64,000 nt of DNA from Nitrosophilus kaiyonis. GTDB lineage: Bacteria; Campylobacterota; Campylobacteria; Campylobacterales; Nitratiruptoraceae. Position numbers and translations under genes: made by a program. The stretch is from the NCBI RefSeq assembly GCF_027943725.1, contig NZ_AP025696.1:1031501-1095500 (forward strand), given 5' to 3'. Below the pieces are notes generated by a model. The model saw nothing but the letters and a program-made list of their open reading frames with translations, was not told the DNA's origin and did no database searches. This document shows, one piece after another, positions 39,340 through 55,909 of the stretch. Each line of letters starts with the position of its first letter. Position 1 is the first letter of the stretch.

Positions 39340-39540
39340 AAACCTGAGCGGTGCGCTACCCGCGATATGGGGGTCCGACAATCCACGTTTGAGGGAGGCC
39401 TGTAGATTTTGGTGTGTGTCGGTGACTTCGTTTGAGCCAGGGAGACTTGGCGAGAAGCCGCCGCCTAATCCAAAACTCGCTCCCTCTTATTTTGGTCTTA
39501 GGGACCATTGCATAGCGTGAACGCCCGCTCGGGTTTTTTT
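39340..39540 (+). ncRNA. ssrS: 6S RNA (SsrS), RNA polymerase regulator, with terminator
   Basis: A GC-rich, roughly 195-nt transcript that folds as one long rod. ACCTGAGCGG at the 5' end pairs with CCGCTCGGGT at the 3' end. Then TGCGCTA pairs with TAGCGTG, GGTCC with GGACC, GAGGGAG with CTCCCTC and TTTTGG with CCAAAA; the apical hairpin is GCCAGG with CTTGGC. CGAGAAGCC beside the apex matches a conserved E. coli 6S stretch. 6S RNA mimics an open promoter and binds the housekeeping holoenzyme. CCCG/CGGG followed by TTTTTTT (39524-39540) ends it. SRP RNA is excluded because GGAAGCAGCC is missing; tmRNA and RNase P signatures are absent. Confidence 0.75.
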
Positions 39541-47384: not shown

Positions 47385-47497
47385 GATAAATAAGTATAGT
47401 GAGTTAAAAAATAGTAATTGGTATATTGGTTATTAGTTATTGGTAAAAAAATCAAATATCTAATATACCAATTACCAATATACTAATAACCAAAATA
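47385..47497. repeat. Type A palindromic array between pnp and atpE
   Basis: attggtatattggttattag words on the left and tataccaattaccaatatac, ctaataaccaaaatag on the right form an imperfect hairpin about 100 bp long. Confidence 0.75.
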
Positions 47498-47527
47498 GCT
47501 AATTTATCTATTTTTAACAATTTTTTT

Positions 47528-47993: not shown

Positions 47994-48080
<87 letters not shown>

Positions 48081-49028
48081 CTATTTTAGATTTTGAATTG
48101 TTTTAAAGCTTTTTTTGGGATTTCCATACTTATCAATAACTCCAAAGAATTTTTCAGCTTTTTTAAAGTATCCTTTTTGTGATGGTTGATCTATCAAATG
48201 AAAATAGTTTATTCCTATTAAGTTTGCCTCTTTTTTTATACATGGAAGAAGTTCGTTGAAAGTTTCTAATACTTTGTTTTGTAAATTATTATCTTTATAT
48301 GAAGATATTGCTAAATATGCTAAAAAAGTTGGCTTTTTATATCTTTTATAAAGAAATTTAGCAAATGCGAAAGCTCGATATGGAGTATTTAAAATTTGAT
48401 ATTTTTTATTTCTTGTTAATGCTCTCATTTCTTGAAAAGCGATAAAATCAATATATTTTATAGCTTTTATATATGATTTTTCATACATTTTCCAATTTAG
48501 TTCATCTTCTATTAAATCATAATCTCCAAAATCTCCCAAGCAAAATCCAATAAGAGTATTTTTATTATCTTCTTTTAAAATTTTTATACTTTTTATTAAA
48601 ATAGTATTAAATTTTTTACTTTTATAGATATCATTTTGATTAAATTCTGGGTTTAATATAACAATTTTTTTCCCTTTTATTTTTTTTAAAAAATTTGAAA
48701 ATTTTTTAAGATGTAAAAAATATTTTTTTCTATTTTTTTTAACAAAATCATTACATATTTCATCTTCAAACCAATAAAATATAAAGATCGGTGTTAATCC
48801 TTGTTTTATTGAACTATTAATTTTTTCAATCGAATACCAATTTTCATTCCAATCTTTTGTAATCCATAAAGAATATGAATTAAAATTTGATAGATTTTTA
48901 TTTAAAAAATTAGATATTAAAAATTTTTTGTTTTTAAATATGATATTTTCATATCCTCCAATACTAAGATAAAAATCTTGGGCAAAAATAGATGATATAA
49001 AAAAGAGAATCAATACTATTTTTTTCAT
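48081..49028 (-). CDS. Exported TIM-barrel-like glycoside hydrolase candidate
   Basis: A 315-residue protein with signal peptide MKKIVLILFFISSIFAQ. Features fit a hydrolase barrel: strands ending in acidic residues (IFIFYWFEDE, KIVILNPEFN, TLIGFCLGDFGDYD, YIDFIAFQEMRAL, and LIGINYFHLIDQ near the end). No family can be named with certainty. By context it would cut the polysaccharide made by this operon, as the C-terminal hydrolase domain of PgaB or the N-terminal one of PelA does, but here as a separate protein. The start overlaps the deacetylase stop (ATGA), and its stop lies directly next to the tRNA 3' end. Confidence 0.6.
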   Translation of the reverse strand: MKKIVLILFFISSIFAQDFYLSIGGYENIIFKNKKFLISNFLNKNLSNFNSYSLWITKDWNENWYSIEKINSSIKQGLTPIFIFYWFEDEICNDFVKKNRKKYFLHLKKFSNFLKKIKGKKIVILNPEFNQNDIYKSKKFNTILIKSIKILKEDNKNTLIGFCLGDFGDYDLIEDELNWKMYEKSYIKAIKYIDFIAFQEMRALTRNKKYQILNTPYRAFAFAKFLYKRYKKPTFLAYLAISSYKDNNLQNKVLETFNELLPCIKKEANLIGINYFHLIDQPSQKGYFKKAEKFFGVIDKYGNPKKSFKTIQNLK

Positions 49029-50875
49029 GATTCAAAAGGTATAGTTATATTTATAGTCGTTTTTGGAGGTAGTTTTTTAATTGTAATATCACTATATCTT
49101 TCTTTATTAAAGTTTTTTATGTAAATTTTAATACCTGAAAATTGAGAGTATGGTTTTTTAATTTTTGAAAATTTATTCCAATAGAGTCTGAATTTGAAAT
49201 TTTCAACATCTTTCGTATTTAAATTTGACACAGTTACAATAAAATTTTTTTCTGCCTTTTTAATATCTAAATTTATATTATAAAACTGTTTTATAATATT
49301 ATAAATCTGTTCTCCATTTGCTACATTTTTTTTATTTATTTTAAGATAATTAAAAAATTTAGCCAAAGTAATAATATTATCTTTATATGTAAAAAGATGT
49401 GTATGGACACTTAAAGTATATATTCCATTTAATGATGTTATGAATTTCATCTCTTCAATAATATTTTCAAAAATCTCTTTTTTTGTCATATCTGTTTCAG
49501 CCATATATGCATAATCATCTGTGCCGACACGAGGTATAGTCAGTAGTGTATCATTGTAAAAAAATGGAAATAGTTGGTCTTTGTTTTTTTCCAATACATA
49601 TCTATATCCACTATTTGTTAACCATTTTATAACATTTTTATCTACCTCTTCTCTTGGTGGTCTAAAACCTATTACTTTTCTTTTTGATAATTTTTCCAAT
49701 ATTTCTTTTGAATATTTTATCTCTTTTTCTAATTTTTTTTCACTTTCATTTAATAAATTTGTATGTGAATAGCTATGTGATGCAATCTCTAAATATATAT
49801 TTTTACTTGATTGAATAAAAATATCCCTATTCTTTTCTGCTAAATTTGCTACACAAAAAGCTGTAGTATAAAGTTTATATTTTTTTGATAAATTGGAAAA
49901 ATTTTTCAAATTTTCAAATTTATATTCTGTATCTTCAGAAATAAATACTAAATCTTTTTTATCAATGTAAGGGAATTTTGCAATGCTATATCCATTATAA
50001 GCAAAGTTTATAATATCTAATAATAAATTATCATAATAGTTGCTATTTTCTTTTGAAGAGAAAAATGAATAAAATGGAAAAGAGAAATATATCCACATAC
50101 CTTTTTTATAATTTCCATGCCATAATACACCAGATTCATTTATAGAAAGTCTTTTATTAAATTGATCAAGTGGTGGAGAAGTTAAAGACCAGTTGGTTAG
50201 TGTAATATCTGGAATAGAAGAAGATTTAAAATAGGGAATATTATCATAAAGTACTAAATCAGCTCTTTTACCATTTTTTGAACTATTGTGAAAAGGGGAT
50301 AATATTTTTGGTACTATAAATATATCACTGTTTTTTGTATTTAAATGAGAATATTTTTTGTTATTTTTAAAATTAGTTATTTTCTTTACAAAATTATCTC
50401 CTAAAAAATTGCCTTTTTCATCACTATAAGCACAATTAAAATTAAAAATTAAACTTCCTCCATTTTCTAAAAATTTCAATATATTTTTTTGTATTTTTTT
50501 AGGTAAGGATATTGCATCAATTAAAAGTAAGGTAGATTTTTCTGGCATTTTTTTTATCTCATTTTCTTTAATAACAACCGGTTTATATCCATTTTTATTA
50601 AGAACATTTTTTATTGTCTCAATATTCCATAAATAATTTTTTTCTCCAACTCCTATATCATTAAATCTTTTAATGGTTGAATTTGATTTTAAAATATAAA
50701 TCTTTTTCTCTTTTTTTGAAATAGGAGCAAATACATTTATATCAGTAAAATTTTGAAAAATTTTTATAGTTAAATATGAAGATAAAAAGAGTAAAAAAAT
50801 AGCAATTAAAAATATTTTCAATATATAAGGAAATAAAAAAATATTTTTTTGAGGCACATTATTTTTCAAAATCAT
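49025..50875 (-). CDS. Membrane-anchored polysaccharide deacetylase
   Basis: 616 residues. One TM helix lies near 15-40. A periplasmic glutamine-amidotransferase-like Rossmann region (about 60-295) follows, then a NodB-type deacetylase domain. The metal site is formed by Glu314-Asp315 (SEDTE) and HSYSH at 367-371, with the RPP motif in GFRPPREE at 405-411. A C-terminal beta-sandwich begins near 535. The layout recalls PelA/PgaB rather than simple chitin deacetylases. I start at ATG 50875, which has GAGG at proper spacing; an upstream in-frame TTG at 50887 is less likely. It overlaps the small membrane gene upstream. Confidence 0.82.
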   Translation of the reverse strand: MILKNNVPQKNIFLFPYILKIFLIAIFLLFLSSYLTIKIFQNFTDINVFAPISKKEKKIYILKSNSTIKRFNDIGVGEKNYLWNIETIKNVLNKNGYKPVVIKENEIKKMPEKSTLLLIDAISLPKKIQKNILKFLENGGSLIFNFNCAYSDEKGNFLGDNFVKKITNFKNNKKYSHLNTKNSDIFIVPKILSPFHNSSKNGKRADLVLYDNIPYFKSSSIPDITLTNWSLTSPPLDQFNKRLSINESGVLWHGNYKKGMWIYFSFPFYSFFSSKENSNYYDNLLLDIINFAYNGYSIAKFPYIDKKDLVFISEDTEYKFENLKNFSNLSKKYKLYTTAFCVANLAEKNRDIFIQSSKNIYLEIASHSYSHTNLLNESEKKLEKEIKYSKEILEKLSKRKVIGFRPPREEVDKNVIKWLTNSGYRYVLEKNKDQLFPFFYNDTLLTIPRVGTDDYAYMAETDMTKKEIFENIIEEMKFITSLNGIYTLSVHTHLFTYKDNIITLAKFFNYLKINKKNVANGEQIYNIIKQFYNINLDIKKAEKNFIVTVSNLNTKDVENFKFRLYWNKFSKIKKPYSQFSGIKIYIKNFNKERYSDITIKKLPPKTTINITIPFES

Positions 50876-51077
50876 TTTTTTCCTCAAATTCTATTTTCTT
50901 AAAGAAAAGATAATTGCTATTTTCTATTTTTAAAGCTTCTTCATAAGGAATGATTCTATTTTTTAATTTTGATTTTTTTTCTCTAGCTTTATAAAGGAAA
51001 TAGGCAATAATTCCAAAAATTAGAGTCAAAATAGTAATAATTAAAATTACAAAAGATAATAAAGCTATAAAATTCAT
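50859..51077 (-). CDS. Small single-helix membrane protein of the exopolysaccharide operon
   Basis: 72 residues with one strong membrane helix (about 5-30) and a charged cytosolic tail. No domain is recognised. Its position directly after the synthase gene (1-base overlap) and before the deacetylase suggests a PgaD-like accessory subunit of the synthase. PgaD, however, has two helices, so this is positional inference. Confidence 0.7.
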   Translation of the reverse strand: MNFIALLSFVILIITILTLIFGIIAYFLYKAREKKSKLKNRIIPYEEALKIENSNYLFFKKIEFEEKNDFEK

Positions 51078-52372
51078 TACAATTTTCCTTTTCTTTCAAG
51101 TTTTCCCCAATTCATTTCTATATTGAACCACTCTTCAAGAGTTGCAAAAACTTTTGAAATATTTATAATTGATATAAAATATAGTCTGTAAAATATAGCA
51201 TAAAGAGCTAATTTTAGATTGTCTTTTGTGACCATTATACAGTAAAAAGCACCTGCTACATCCAATATTGTAAAAAAAAGCCACCAATAAATCAATAAAA
51301 TATCTGCTCCATACTTTAATGAAATAAATATTAAAAACATATTTGCCCAGGTATCCATAAATGGCCAAAGTACAGCTTCAAATAGCATATACCACAAAAC
51401 AAAAAACATTGAAGGCTTTTTAAAGGAGAAAAGGCGTTTTTTATGTTTTTTGATAGATTGTAAAATACCTCTTGTCCATCTATATCTCTGTTTTAAAAGA
51501 TCTAAAAGATGTTCAGGGGCTTCTGTGTATGCAACAGCATCCGATTCAAACTCTATTTTATATCCATTATCTAAAAGTTTTAGAGTTAAATCACAATCTT
51601 CTGCAAATGTATCGCTATCATATCCTCCAACTTCTTTAACACTTTTTTTTCTAAACATTCCTATTGGGCCAGGTATGATATTTACCAACTTTAAAAAAGC
51701 TTGGCCATTTCTAGCCATATTTAAGCCTTCTACATATTCTAATGCTTGGAGTTTTGTTAATATATTATTTTGATTTGCAACAAAAACAGAACCGGCAACT
51801 GCAGATATTTCCTCATCATTAAAATATTCAACCATTTTTTCTACCGCATATTTATCAAGTCTGGAATCAGCATCTATACATAAAATTAACTCACCTGTTG
51901 ATCTTTCAATACCAAAATTTAATGCTTTTGCTTTACCTTCGTTTCTTTTTTTATAAACTTTTACATTATTAGATAAATTTTCAAAAAATTTTGCCTGTTT
52001 ATATGTGTCATCAGTTGAACCATCATCGACAACAATGATTTCTAAATTTTTATATGTTTGTTGTAATAAAGAGCGGATTGGTGCTTTTATAATAACTCCT
52101 TCATTGTATGCAGGAATAATTGCAGATACTTTAAAATTTTTATAACTGATTGGTTTTTCTTCTGCACTTTTAAAAACAGTTTTAAGAATAGAAAAAATTA
52201 TCAAAGATAGATATCTAAGAATAATAATGAAAGTAAAAGCAATGATTAAAATTACACCAAATCTAATAAAAGTTGATTCAAAATTAATATAGTAATCAAT
52301 AAGATTTGCCGAATGATATAAACTAAAAGTTATTAAAAATATTATAAAAAAAATAAATAAAATCTCTTTCAT
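51077..52372 (-). CDS. PgaC/IcaA-like family 2 glycosyltransferase (exopolysaccharide synthase)
   Basis: A processive inner-membrane synthase of 431 residues. Two N-terminal helices (to about 62) precede a GT2 domain with DDGST at 116-120, DAD at 167-169, the catalytic Asp in AED 257-259 and QRYRW at 295-299. Three or four C-terminal helices and the ending EEWFNIEMNWGKLERKGK follow. These are the motifs of beta-1,6-GlcNAc and related synthases. The sugar cannot be fixed from sequence, though the adjacent deacetylase argues for an N-acetylated one. ATG comes one base after the upstream TAA. Confidence 0.92.
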   Translation of the reverse strand: MKEILFIFFIIFLITFSLYHSANLIDYYINFESTFIRFGVILIIAFTFIIILRYLSLIIFSILKTVFKSAEEKPISYKNFKVSAIIPAYNEGVIIKAPIRSLLQQTYKNLEIIVVDDGSTDDTYKQAKFFENLSNNVKVYKKRNEGKAKALNFGIERSTGELILCIDADSRLDKYAVEKMVEYFNDEEISAVAGSVFVANQNNILTKLQALEYVEGLNMARNGQAFLKLVNIIPGPIGMFRKKSVKEVGGYDSDTFAEDCDLTLKLLDNGYKIEFESDAVAYTEAPEHLLDLLKQRYRWTRGILQSIKKHKKRLFSFKKPSMFFVLWYMLFEAVLWPFMDTWANMFLIFISLKYGADILLIYWWLFFTILDVAGAFYCIMVTKDNLKLALYAIFYRLYFISIINISKVFATLEEWFNIEMNWGKLERKGKL

Positions 52373-52373
52373 T

Positions 52374-54563
52374 TTACCATCTATATAATAGCTTGAAGTT
52401 TACTTCTCTATACCAGTAATTTTGATTATTAGAGCTTTTTGATAAAGAATTTCCTTGTATAAAAGATAATTTTATACTTGAATGTTGATCAAATCGATAC
52501 TCTAACCAAGATGAAATTTGATATAAAAAGCTACTTTCTTTAAAACTATATCCAATTTCAGGCTTAAATAAGAAAGAATAGTTGTTTTTTATTTTTTTTG
52601 TCTCTATACCTAAAAATGTACTATCATAAAATTTAGGAGAATAGTAATAATCACTTGTTTTTGAATTAAGATGATACCAGCCAGAAACAATAAAACCATT
52701 TTCAAAAGAGTAATATTTTTTAAATAGATATTGATAAACAAATTGAGCAGTCAAAGCTTTATTCCCATCATCAACTTTATCAAATTCAATAGATGCCCAT
52801 ATATATTTTTTCTTTTTTAGATCTATATCTTTATAAAAATCAAAATCTAAAGAGATTGCATCAATTCTTTCATCAAAAAGATATTTTCTATATTTTAAAA
52901 ATCCATAATTTCTTTTTTTGATAGTAGTTCTTATTGAGACTTTTTTATATGTAGTTTCATATTGAAAATATGGGCTAAAATCAGTTTTTGAATTAAATTT
53001 GTCAAAATTAATTCCAAAATTATAGTTTGAATATTTTAAAGATGTCTGTAAAGTTTTTCCCTTTAGACTTTCATCATCAATAAGTTTCCAAATTTGTGGT
53101 GATATATGTAGATTAACTTTGTCGTTAAATATCTTAGAAAAAACTATTTTTTTATTATAAAAGTTAATATGATCTTTATCACTATAATGATAAAAATCAA
53201 ACTCTAAAGTTTTATCGTTTTTTAGTATATTTTCTTCTATATCAATTTTATCTTCTATATTATCTTTTGAAAGCAATTGAGATGTATTTTTTATTTTAAT
53301 TTTTTTTAATTTATAAAGATCCAATACACTATATTTTGGTTTGATATCTTTTTTGATTCCTTCAGCTACTTTTACTTTTGTTAGATTCTCTTCTAAAGAT
53401 TTTATCTTTTGTATTAATTTTTTTTCATTTTTACATTGGATTTTAAACTCTTTAATATTTTTTTCAAGTGATTCGTATATATTTAATATTTGAAGTAAAT
53501 TAATATATTCATAAAAATATTGGCAATTAACAAATTTTATTTTTTCTAAATATTTAATAGCTTTTTTATACTCTTTTCTTTCATTAAAAATTTTGTACAT
53601 TTTATAATAATGTTTTTCTCTAAAAATAATAAATTCTTTATTATTTTTAAATTTTTGTGACATATATAAAAAAAGATTTTGAGCTTCATGAATTTTATTA
53701 AACCATATATAATGATTATATAGCTCCTTATATGCCAAAAAAGTTTGTGTTATTTGTGCATATTTTTTTAAATAATTAAATCCAACATCTTCATTTTTCA
53801 ATCTTAAATATAAAATTCCTAACTCTCTTAAAACAGATATATCTAAAGGATTTTTCCCATAATAAACTTCATAAAATTTAATTGCTTTTTTTATATTTCC
53901 TGCTTTTTGATTATAAAGTGCGAGTTTATAAATGTATTGAATATTATCTGGATTTGATTTATATAATTTTTCATATTTTTTAATTAAATATTGATATTTT
54001 TTTTCGATTACCATTAAAGCTTCATTTACTTCATCACTTTTGTAAAATTTCAGATATTCATTGAAATATTTTTTTGCTTTTTTATAATCTCCATTCCAAT
54101 AATATATAAATCCCATATATTTAAAAGATTTTATTTTAAGTTTTTTATTTTTACTATTTTTGATTATTTTTAAAAATATTTTTTTGCTTAATTCAAAGTC
54201 ACCATTCCATGCAAGATATTTAGCAATTTCAAAATCTATCTCTTCATCTTTTAAACCAATTTTTTTTAAAGATTTTCTAGCATCTTTTATATTATGAATG
54301 TAGACTTGATACATTGCAAGTACTTTATATGCATATTTATAGAAAGGATATTTTGAAATAAATTTTTTTAAAAAATTAATTGTTTTCTTTTTTGATTTAA
54401 ATATATATAGGTATTGTGCATATTTTTCTATAGGAGAGAAATCATAATCTTTCTTAAAATTTATAATAATCTCTTTCTCAGATTTATTAAATAGATTTTG
54501 TTTTAAATTTTCATTTGCAAAGAGAGATAAAAGAAGCAAAATTAAAATGAAAATCATTTTCAT
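52374..54563 (-). CDS. TPR and beta-barrel outer-membrane exporter (PgaA-like)
   Basis: 729 residues. The signal peptide is MKMIFILILLLLSLFA. An alpha-helical TPR superhelix follows to about residue 400 (for example AGNIKKAIKFYEVYYGKNPL and KAKKYFNEYLKFYKSDE). The last 250 residues consist of alternating strands and end in an aromatic residue (EVNFKLLYRW), the outer-membrane barrel signature. This is the layout of PgaA and PelB, which carry and modify the polymer through the outer membrane. It overlaps the upstream gene by 4 bases (ATGA). Confidence 0.85.
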   Translation of the reverse strand: MKMIFILILLLLSLFANENLKQNLFNKSEKEIIINFKKDYDFSPIEKYAQYLYIFKSKKKTINFLKKFISKYPFYKYAYKVLAMYQVYIHNIKDARKSLKKIGLKDEEIDFEIAKYLAWNGDFELSKKIFLKIIKNSKNKKLKIKSFKYMGFIYYWNGDYKKAKKYFNEYLKFYKSDEVNEALMVIEKKYQYLIKKYEKLYKSNPDNIQYIYKLALYNQKAGNIKKAIKFYEVYYGKNPLDISVLRELGILYLRLKNEDVGFNYLKKYAQITQTFLAYKELYNHYIWFNKIHEAQNLFLYMSQKFKNNKEFIIFREKHYYKMYKIFNERKEYKKAIKYLEKIKFVNCQYFYEYINLLQILNIYESLEKNIKEFKIQCKNEKKLIQKIKSLEENLTKVKVAEGIKKDIKPKYSVLDLYKLKKIKIKNTSQLLSKDNIEDKIDIEENILKNDKTLEFDFYHYSDKDHINFYNKKIVFSKIFNDKVNLHISPQIWKLIDDESLKGKTLQTSLKYSNYNFGINFDKFNSKTDFSPYFQYETTYKKVSIRTTIKKRNYGFLKYRKYLFDERIDAISLDFDFYKDIDLKKKKYIWASIEFDKVDDGNKALTAQFVYQYLFKKYYSFENGFIVSGWYHLNSKTSDYYYSPKFYDSTFLGIETKKIKNNYSFLFKPEIGYSFKESSFLYQISSWLEYRFDQHSSIKLSFIQGNSLSKSSNNQNYWYREVNFKLLYRW

Positions 54564-55909
54564 GAGAAGATATATGCCTTTTGATAAAAGATATCAAGAG
54601 AATCAAAAGATTTTCCCAATAAAAGATAATCTTTAAAATCGCTAAATTTATTTTCTAAAATTTCATAATTATTTTTTTGAAAATTTAACATTAAAAGATA
54701 CAATTTTTTCTCTTTTTTATCAAAAAAGACTCTATCATACTTTCTTAGTCTATTTATTAAATCATCTATATGAAGATTTTGATTGTATTTAAATTGAAAT
54801 ATAGTAAAAAATAGCCTTTTTTTTATTAATAGGTTAATAACCTCTAAAAAATCCTTTTTTTCTTTAAAATAGTTCACATTTATTTCTATCTTTTTATTAC
54901 TGTAAAAACTATTTTCAAGACTTTTTTCTAATAAAAAGATATAATCACTTAGATTATAATAGGTTGTAATATCACTACATCCATTATTTATAGCATTTAT
55001 TTTATCTTCTGTTCTTATAAACTTTTTCTCTAAAAGTAATAAAATTTGAGTATTAAGAGGACTTTCCTTTAAAAATTTACATGATTGAACATCTATATCT
55101 TCACTATGATAAATTGTAATATCTGGATTTTTTAAAAATTCTTCTAAAATTTTTAAAGGATCATTTTCTATAGTAAGATTTATAAAATTATTATTATCAA
55201 ATATGTAACTATGAAGCTTTGAAAGATACTCATCTTTTGTAAAAACTAGTATATTTTTTTTGGTAACTATTTTTTCATTCTTTTTTGTAATTAACTTAAA
55301 TCTATTTTTATCTATTTTAAAATAAAACTCATTTTCTTTCAATGGAAATAGAGAGTATTTAATAGAAATATTTTTTGAAAAATTATCAAAATTTTTAACA
55401 TCAAAATTTATATCAATGAATTGGTATAAGTTTTCCTCAATCATTTCATATAGTGGATTTTCTTTATTTAATAAAACAAATACTCTTTTTTGATATTTTT
55501 GAATTATATCTGTTAGATTTTTTATAAAAAATTCAATATCATTAAGATCCATATTCTCAAAAAATTGTGAAAATCTATGAAAAATAATATTTTTTGCACT
55601 ACTTTCTTTTATTATTTTTTCAATCTCTTCTATAAATAGCAAAAAAGAGTATTTTTCTTTTATATCTTTCCAATCTGGCTTAATTGTGAAAATATCAAGA
55701 TGATTATATAAATCTTTAAAATTATCAAAATTTTTATGTAAAATATTTATCTTCTTTATTAAAATATTTTCATATTGAGATGAAAAAATAATAGCTTTTT
55801 CATCAAAAGCATTTTTAATTAACCAGGAAGCAAAAGTGAGTTTGCCTGTACCAGAATTTCCAGATATAGCTATATATGAAGAATCATTCAATATTTTATA
55901 AAGTTCCAT
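54560..55909 (-). CDS. RecA-like ATPase / REC-like / degenerate GGDEF protein (BcsE/PelD-like c-di-GMP receptor candidate)
   Basis: 449 residues, cytosolic, first gene of the exopolysaccharide operon. Residues 1-205 look like a KaiC/RecA-type ATPase with P-loop GNSGTGK at 17-23. Residues 217-333 follow a receiver fold (ILVFTKDEYL, TQILLLLEKKF, INNGCSDI) but lack the phosphorylation Asp. Residues 350-449 resemble a GGDEF domain: Arg389-Lys-Tyr-Asp392, then five residues, then KKEKK where GGDEF would stand. So the active site is lost, but an RxxD with I-site spacing remains. BcsE has a similar domain series. The role as c-di-GMP sensor is inferred. Confidence 0.65.
   Translation of the reverse strand: MELYKILNDSSYIAISGNSGTGKLTFASWLIKNAFDEKAIIFSSQYENILIKKINILHKNFDNFKDLYNHLDIFTIKPDWKDIKEKYSFLLFIEEIEKIIKESSAKNIIFHRFSQFFENMDLNDIEFFIKNLTDIIQKYQKRVFVLLNKENPLYEMIEENLYQFIDINFDVKNFDNFSKNISIKYSLFPLKENEFYFKIDKNRFKLITKKNEKIVTKKNILVFTKDEYLSKLHSYIFDNNNFINLTIENDPLKILEEFLKNPDITIYHSEDIDVQSCKFLKESPLNTQILLLLEKKFIRTEDKINAINNGCSDITTYYNLSDYIFLLEKSLENSFYSNKKIEINVNYFKEKKDFLEVINLLIKKRLFFTIFQFKYNQNLHIDDLINRLRKYDRVFFDKKEKKLYLLMLNFQKNNYEILENKFSDFKDYLLLGKSFDSLDIFYQKAYIFS

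Follow-up and report, generated by a model that had tools for sequence, protein, structure and literature searches.

A candidate exopolysaccharide secretion operon with a BcsE-like leader gene in Nitrosophilus kaiyonis and its relatives

We analyzed a 64,000-nucleotide stretch of the Nitrosophilus kaiyonis genome (contig NZ_AP025696.1, positions 1,031,501 to 1,095,500; here, the window), in which six genes, designated A to F, lie together on the minus strand (Table 1). We put at roughly two in three the probability that these genes form a synthase-dependent exopolysaccharide machine under BcsE-like control, its most likely product being a partly de-acetylated beta-1,4-linked N-acetylglucosamine (GlcNAc), that is, chitosan-like, polymer. 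The operon itself is real, and its assignment as a secretion machine is well supported by the predicted proteins. A preliminary description of the same DNA had read it as an exopolysaccharide operon with functions for synthesis, modification, export, and control, and each of these parts found support. No description of the operon was found in the open-access literature (subscription literature lay outside the search), and within that literature it is a not previously described variant of synthase-dependent exopolysaccharide secretion.

Conservation, synthesis, and export

A class-wide search with E, covering 298 genomes, found this gene in 8 of them, including that of the window. All seven relatives keep the order A-B-C-D-E, and six of them also carry F. 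Along similar lines, a scan of named genomes returned 36 loci, mostly in metagenome-assembled genomes (MAGs) of Campylobacterota, together with a Methylococcales MAG, Marinobacterium jannaschii, and Pontibacterium sinense. Two gene orders recur, A-B-C-D-E(-F) (type I) and B-A-C-D-E (type II), one or the other being carried by about 30 loci beyond the class relatives, and type II forms a single group in the synthase tree (support, 98/100). Thus, the gene order that the preliminary description had suggested looking for in other Campylobacterota recurs in class relatives, in many MAGs, and in three gammaproteobacteria, and this conservation excludes a chance grouping of the six genes.

Table 1. 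Positions in the window of the six operon genes and of the two RxxD motifs in gene A
Feature	Position	Strand	Description
Gene A	54560..55909	minus	449 aa; BcsE-like putative cyclic di-GMP (c-di-GMP) sensor: degenerate KaiC/RecA-like NTPase, receiver-like domain (REC*), GGDEF*
Gene B	52374..54563	minus	729 aa; tetratricopeptide repeat (TPR) scaffold and C-terminal outer-membrane barrel, predicted exporter
Gene C	51077..52372	minus	431 aa; processive glycosyltransferase family 2 (GT2) synthase; PF00535, 132 bits
Gene D	50859..51077	minus	72 aa; single transmembrane (TM) helix, basic segment, hydrophobic C-terminal tail (YIFFE-type)
Gene E	49025..50869 (ATG start)	minus	614 aa; membrane-anchored predicted de-N-acetylase: TM, amidotransferase-like, carbohydrate esterase 4 (CE4)/NodB, C-terminal beta domain
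Gene F	48081..49028	minus	315 aa; secreted TIM-barrel glycoside hydrolase (GH) candidate
A, REC* motif R299xxD302	55004..55015	minus	In hhalign register with BcsE R306ATD
A, GGDEF* I-site motif R389xxD392	54734..54745	minus	In hhalign register with BcsE R415TGD

The synthase C carries the processive motifs D116D117, D167xD169, ED259, and Q295xxRW299, all invariant in 8 orthologues. It had been called Pga-like, which is accurate only at the level of the superfamily: the top NCBIfam model is PgaC/IcaA, with 195.4 bits against a cut-off of 422.3, and in BLAST comparisons C scores higher against GT2 domains from fusion proteins (GH18-CE4-GT2 in Prevotella and CE4-GT2 in Sulfitobacter; 211 to 220 bits) than against Escherichia coli PgaC (137 bits) or BcsA (57 bits). 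Identity to these nearest relatives is 33 to 36%. The same genome also holds, outside the window, a complete canonical pgaABCD operon (G000:C1, ca. 1109820-1115851; L094, 2821-8852) whose four products all score above their cut-offs, with 618 bits for PgaC, so that the six-gene operon is a second, different system. Neither E nor D matched the corresponding Pga models (TIGR03938 and TIGR03940, respectively), and none of the six proteins gave a Pel-type match, the synthase being a GT2 enzyme. The test for a cellulose synthase was also negative, with 70.6 bits to the CelA model against a cut-off of 699, no PilZ match in C, and no BcsB-like gene among the six. In the fusion synthases, which occur as CE4-GT2 or GH-CE4-GT2 proteins also in Sphingobium and Deinococcus, GT2 and CE4 domains (and GH18 in Prevotella) share one polypeptide, whereas they are separate proteins in this operon, and no BcsE-like sensor or TPR-barrel gene was seen beside them.

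Gene E belongs to the CE4 (NodB fold) family by both domain and catalytic motifs. It matches PF01522 (Polysacc_deac_1) with 60.6 bits against a cut-off of 23.1 and CE4 profiles with E values down to 1.5e-10. The residues H365xxxH369, R403, and H489 of the HxxxH, RxP, and LxH motifs are invariant, and the first motif reads E312-D313 in place of D-D. The N-terminal amidotransferase-like domain matches a GH42 beta-galactosidase domain (E value, 2e-4). Bacillus cereus PelADA, of ca. 610 aa, consists of a TM segment, an alpha/beta/alpha domain, and a CE domain (PMC13254593); compared from the literature, E matches this layout and length and resembles the three-domain Agd3 of Aspergillus (PMC13254593, PMC7229062). 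The profile search with E, however, returned CE4 matches only, with none to PelA or Agd3. The earlier view of this deacetylase as closer to PelA therefore stands for its layout and not for its sequence, whose nearest relatives are CE4 enzymes. Pseudomonas aeruginosa PelA lacks the CE4-type arginine, the equivalent of which E keeps as R403 (PMC12022489).

B is supported as a predicted outer-membrane exporter by its TPR matches in Pfam, by an aromatic residue that ends the protein in nearly all relatives, and by its C terminus, which matches the final part of the PgaA barrel by profile (E value, 0.0012). Together, the operon shares with PgaABCD, the system for poly-beta-1,6-GlcNAc, a TPR-barrel exporter, a GT2 synthase, and a CE4-type deacetylase. 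It differs from it in a synthase below the PgaC cut-off, in having neither PgaD nor a hydrolase fusion of the PgaB type, and in the presence of a BcsE-like sensor.

The BcsE-like leader and its small membrane partner

The leader protein A had been described as BcsE-like, and its fold, domain order, and two RxxD motifs all agree with this. The AlphaFold model of A has three domains (mean predicted local distance difference test [pLDDT] score, 83.6), and in a Foldseek search of about 350,000 PDB chains, full-length E. coli BcsE was the top match (E value, 8e-17). Residues 1 to 213 are KaiC-like by structure comparison (Z score, 18); KaiC dominates that list of structural alignments, which makes it a poor test of the remaining domains. 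By profile, the middle domain matches receivers (E value, 8e-8), and the alignment of A with BcsE scored 36.3, whereas BcsE alignments with shuffled columns reached no more than 17.1 in 40 trials and the reversed control reached 13.5. Given this model, the top PDB match, and the in-register alignment, A has the NTPase*-REC*-GGDEF* architecture and is, as judged from sequence profiles and the predicted fold, a distant homologue of BcsE. Of 33 relatives, 32 retain both RxxD motifs; the remaining one (L036) is a copy that looks damaged. The P-loop is degenerate, with the usual Ser/Thr missing in type I and the whole loop lost in type II, as expected of a pseudo-ATPase like BcsE.

In BcsE, the same two motifs build a composite site that holds dimeric c-di-GMP with nanomolar affinity (PMC11470070), and A may likewise bind this nucleotide. 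The genome encodes 22 GGDEF, 15 EAL, and 3 PilZ matches, which makes c-di-GMP signaling plausible in this host. A D-type protein of ca. 60 aa is present in all but a few operons, with a conserved single TM helix, basic stretch, and hydrophobic C-terminal tail of the YIFFE type. This is the size and layout of BcsF, which recruits BcsE through a tail added to the NTPase* sheet (PMC11470070), and by analogy D may contact A in a similar manner. Thus, the E. coli type II Bcs system (PMC7439463, PMC11470070) shares with the operon a leader with degenerate NTPase, REC*, and GGDEF* domains and two in-register RxxD motifs, together with a partner of ca. 60 aa with a single TM helix and a cytosolic tail encoded in the same operon. 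The present synthase is not BcsA, however, and BcsB, BcsQ, BcsR, and PilZ are missing. An independent tie between this type of deacetylase and BcsE comes from a Burkholderiaceae MAG (L055, 3633-8452), in which a distant E-like deacetylase gene lies directly upstream of a true PF10995 BcsE (199 bits) and a TPR protein also follows; this arrangement is possibly a third operon type.

Put together, these parts suggest a mechanism in which C would polymerize a UDP-hexosamine, most likely UDP-GlcNAc, and push the chain through the inner membrane. As a protein anchored there, E would remove some of the N-acetyl groups on the periplasmic side, F would trim or clear chains in the same compartment, and B would guide the polymer on its TPRs and release it through the outer-membrane barrel. 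On the side of control, the RxxD motifs of the REC* and GGDEF* domains of A would together bind a c-di-GMP dimer in one composite site, as in BcsE. In its bound form, A would be held at the membrane through the BcsF-like D and would activate or stabilize C, which itself lacks a PilZ domain.

Operon layout and surroundings

All six reading frames occur where the preliminary description had placed them, and its domain calls hold: KaiC/RecA-like and receiver domains in A, TPRs and a barrel-like C terminus in B, GT2 in C, one TM helix in D, NodB/CE4 with an amidotransferase-like N-terminal domain in E, and a TIM-barrel hydrolase fold in F. The six genes had also been said to overlap, which they do at four of the five junctions (A/B, 4 nt; C/D, 1 nt; D/E, 11 nt; E/F, 4 nt), while B and C are separated by a 1-nt gap. 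The claim of one promoter-like site did not hold up, since such sites occur at the chance level (70 found versus 76.6 ± 8.8 in shuffled sequences); judged from gene spacing, a single operon promoter is plausible. A search with Rfam found no c-di-GMP riboswitch upstream of the operon; its matches were limited to the tRNA and a purD motif.

The operon is flanked by a tRNA-Leu gene (47994-48080) on one side and a ThiF-like gene on the other. Upstream of the operon, type I relatives often encode a response regulator and a TPR-containing histidine kinase; both are absent from the window copy. No clean empty site was found within the genus, the flanks atpE-tRNA and thiF-surE lying far apart in the two genomes G053 and G298. 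A phage origin was rejected, as viral contigs held no relative of E, and so was carriage on plasmids, where neither E nor F was matched. Also considered, on account of their c-di-GMP-linked regulator and GT2 enzyme, were the stalk-formation (sfz) clusters of Zetaproteobacteria, but their parts differ (BcsB-like Sfz1 and EpsE-GT2 Sfz2; PMC8250860).

Some further features were recorded. A locus of an uncultured bacterium (L056, 4540-10138) encodes consecutively a TPR protein, a GT2 enzyme with 45% identity to C, and an E-like deacetylase, with no BcsE-like gene in view. The purD RNA motif (RF01069) lies at positions 39402 to 39534 of the window and scores 86.7 bits, above the gathering score. 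Between pnp and atpE, a palindrome-like repeat of ca. 100 bp (47402-47513) matches dozens of sites on either strand of the genome, with further matches in genomes of the same genus; it resembles repetitive extragenic palindromic (REP) sequences or miniature inverted-repeat transposable elements (MITEs).

Polymer identity and significance

The hydrolase at the end of the operon differs between the two types. Gene F, which had been recognized as a separate hydrolase, has no Pfam or NCBIfam match, and its model (pLDDT, 81.8) is a TIM barrel like those of clan GH-A enzymes (top Foldseek E value, 8e-9; Z scores up to 22). Two glutamates are invariant, E128 (NPE, after beta-4) and E200 (FQEM, beta-6), and beta-7 lacks the canonical GH-A nucleophile; the model suggests that F acts as a hydrolase. 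F-like domains, which are an unclassified hydrolase family, also occur in larger Campylobacterota proteins (L108, 2240-4867; L109, 4383-6539; L110, 3919-6003; L111, 3513-5087), of which two carry CBM2 modules and another is joined to a GH114 domain. The place of F after E is taken in type II operons by a GH8 enzyme, as seen in all 10 loci tested. Its profile matches the chitosanases 1v5c and 7cju and the glucanase 5xd0 all at ca. 1e-100, with an end-to-end chitosanase match of 340 bits. Its matches to the cellulase CelA (1e-43) and to the GH8 endoglucanases 3qxf and 3qxq, which we take to be BcsZ (2e-5 to 1e-4; 27 bits for 3qxf), are weaker; the enzyme also falls far below the NCBIfam BcsZ cut-off. 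By its sequence, this GH8 enzyme is of the chitosanase type, resembling 1v5c and 7cju from end to end, whereas the window copy has the unrelated F instead.

The chitosan-like product is favored by this GH8 type, by the kinship of C to the GH18-CE4-GT2 proteins, and by the CBM2 modules on relatives of F. We consider partly de-acetylated beta-1,4-GlcNAc the most likely polymer, at odds slightly short of even. The preliminary description had named an orthologous operon with a proven product as the result that would speak against its novel, partly deacetylated matrix polymer; none was found, and the orthologues do point to a polymer through the chitosanase-type GH8 of type II.

Several observations weigh against the proposed chitosan-like system and its control. 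A shares only about 11% identity with BcsE and matches neither PF10995 nor TIGR03369; PF10995 matches are likewise absent from seven orthologues of A and from 21 related genomes, so that A is BcsE-like and homologous but outside the curated BcsE family. D has no detectable sequence similarity to BcsF (or to PgaD), and its BcsF-like role is one we infer from size and layout. As to the polymer, the top PDB match of the type II GH8 enzyme, 5xd0, is named a glucanase, and enzymes of the chitosanase-type subgroup of GH8, which also holds glucanases, may act on glucans as well. GH114, the domain fused to one relative of F, is a galactosaminidase-type family, and PelADA and Agd3, which E resembles in layout, act on N-acetylgalactosamine (GalNAc) polymers. 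Finally, B in the window has 729 aa compared with ca. 1,130 in most type I copies, about 400 residues being missing, and the GC content of the operon is unusually low (21.3%, versus ca. 28% on both sides); the window copy may therefore be a less typical one.

Among other products, a divergent operon of the Pga type, making poly-beta-1,6-GlcNAc with other control and hydrolase parts, would account for the best NCBIfam model of C, for the PgaA-like layout and barrel end of B, and for a CE4-type deacetylase. We find it unlikely, given the distance of C from the PgaC cut-off in a genome whose true PgaC, PgaA, PgaB, and PgaD all pass theirs, the lack of PgaD and of a PgaB hydrolase domain, and the chitosanase-type GH8 in the sister subtype. 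A cationic polymer of GalNAc and galactosamine, like Pel or galactosaminogalactan but made by a GT2 enzyme instead of the GT4 enzyme PelF, is improbable: the PelADA-like TM, alpha/beta/alpha, and CE layout and length of E, its three-domain likeness to Agd3, and the GH114 fusion speak for it, while C belongs to the PgaC/NodC/HAS group with beta linkages, PelD-, PelF-, and PelG-type proteins are absent among the six, and the catalytic domain of E is closest to CE4, with R403 retained. Equally improbable is that a BcsE/BcsF-like module controls the synthesis of a glucan or of a polymer resembling cellulose while the deacetylase acts on another acetylated substrate, which the BcsE likeness of A, the membership of the type II hydrolase in GH8, the family of BcsZ, and the glucanase 5xd0 would fit, but not the low score of C to BcsA, the missing PilZ domain and BcsB partner, the weak match of the GH8 enzyme to the presumed BcsZ entry 3qxf, or the CE4 deacetylase as an invariant part of the operon.

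Returning to the chitosan-like reading, the operon could be a bacterial system devoted to chitosan secretion, with another synthase under the control of a BcsE/BcsF-type c-di-GMP module known so far from cellulose; this is a tentative proposal with the balance of odds somewhat against it. If true, BcsE-type dual-site control by c-di-GMP would be a portable module, able to run a synthase lacking PilZ outside cellulose operons. The operon would also be a candidate for the genes behind a chitosan-like matrix in Campylobacterota, Nautiliaceae among them, and in marine gammaproteobacteria, and F would represent an unclassified hydrolase family with a predicted substrate. Since the operon occurs in the named isolates Marinobacterium jannaschii and Pontibacterium sinense, the idea is testable.

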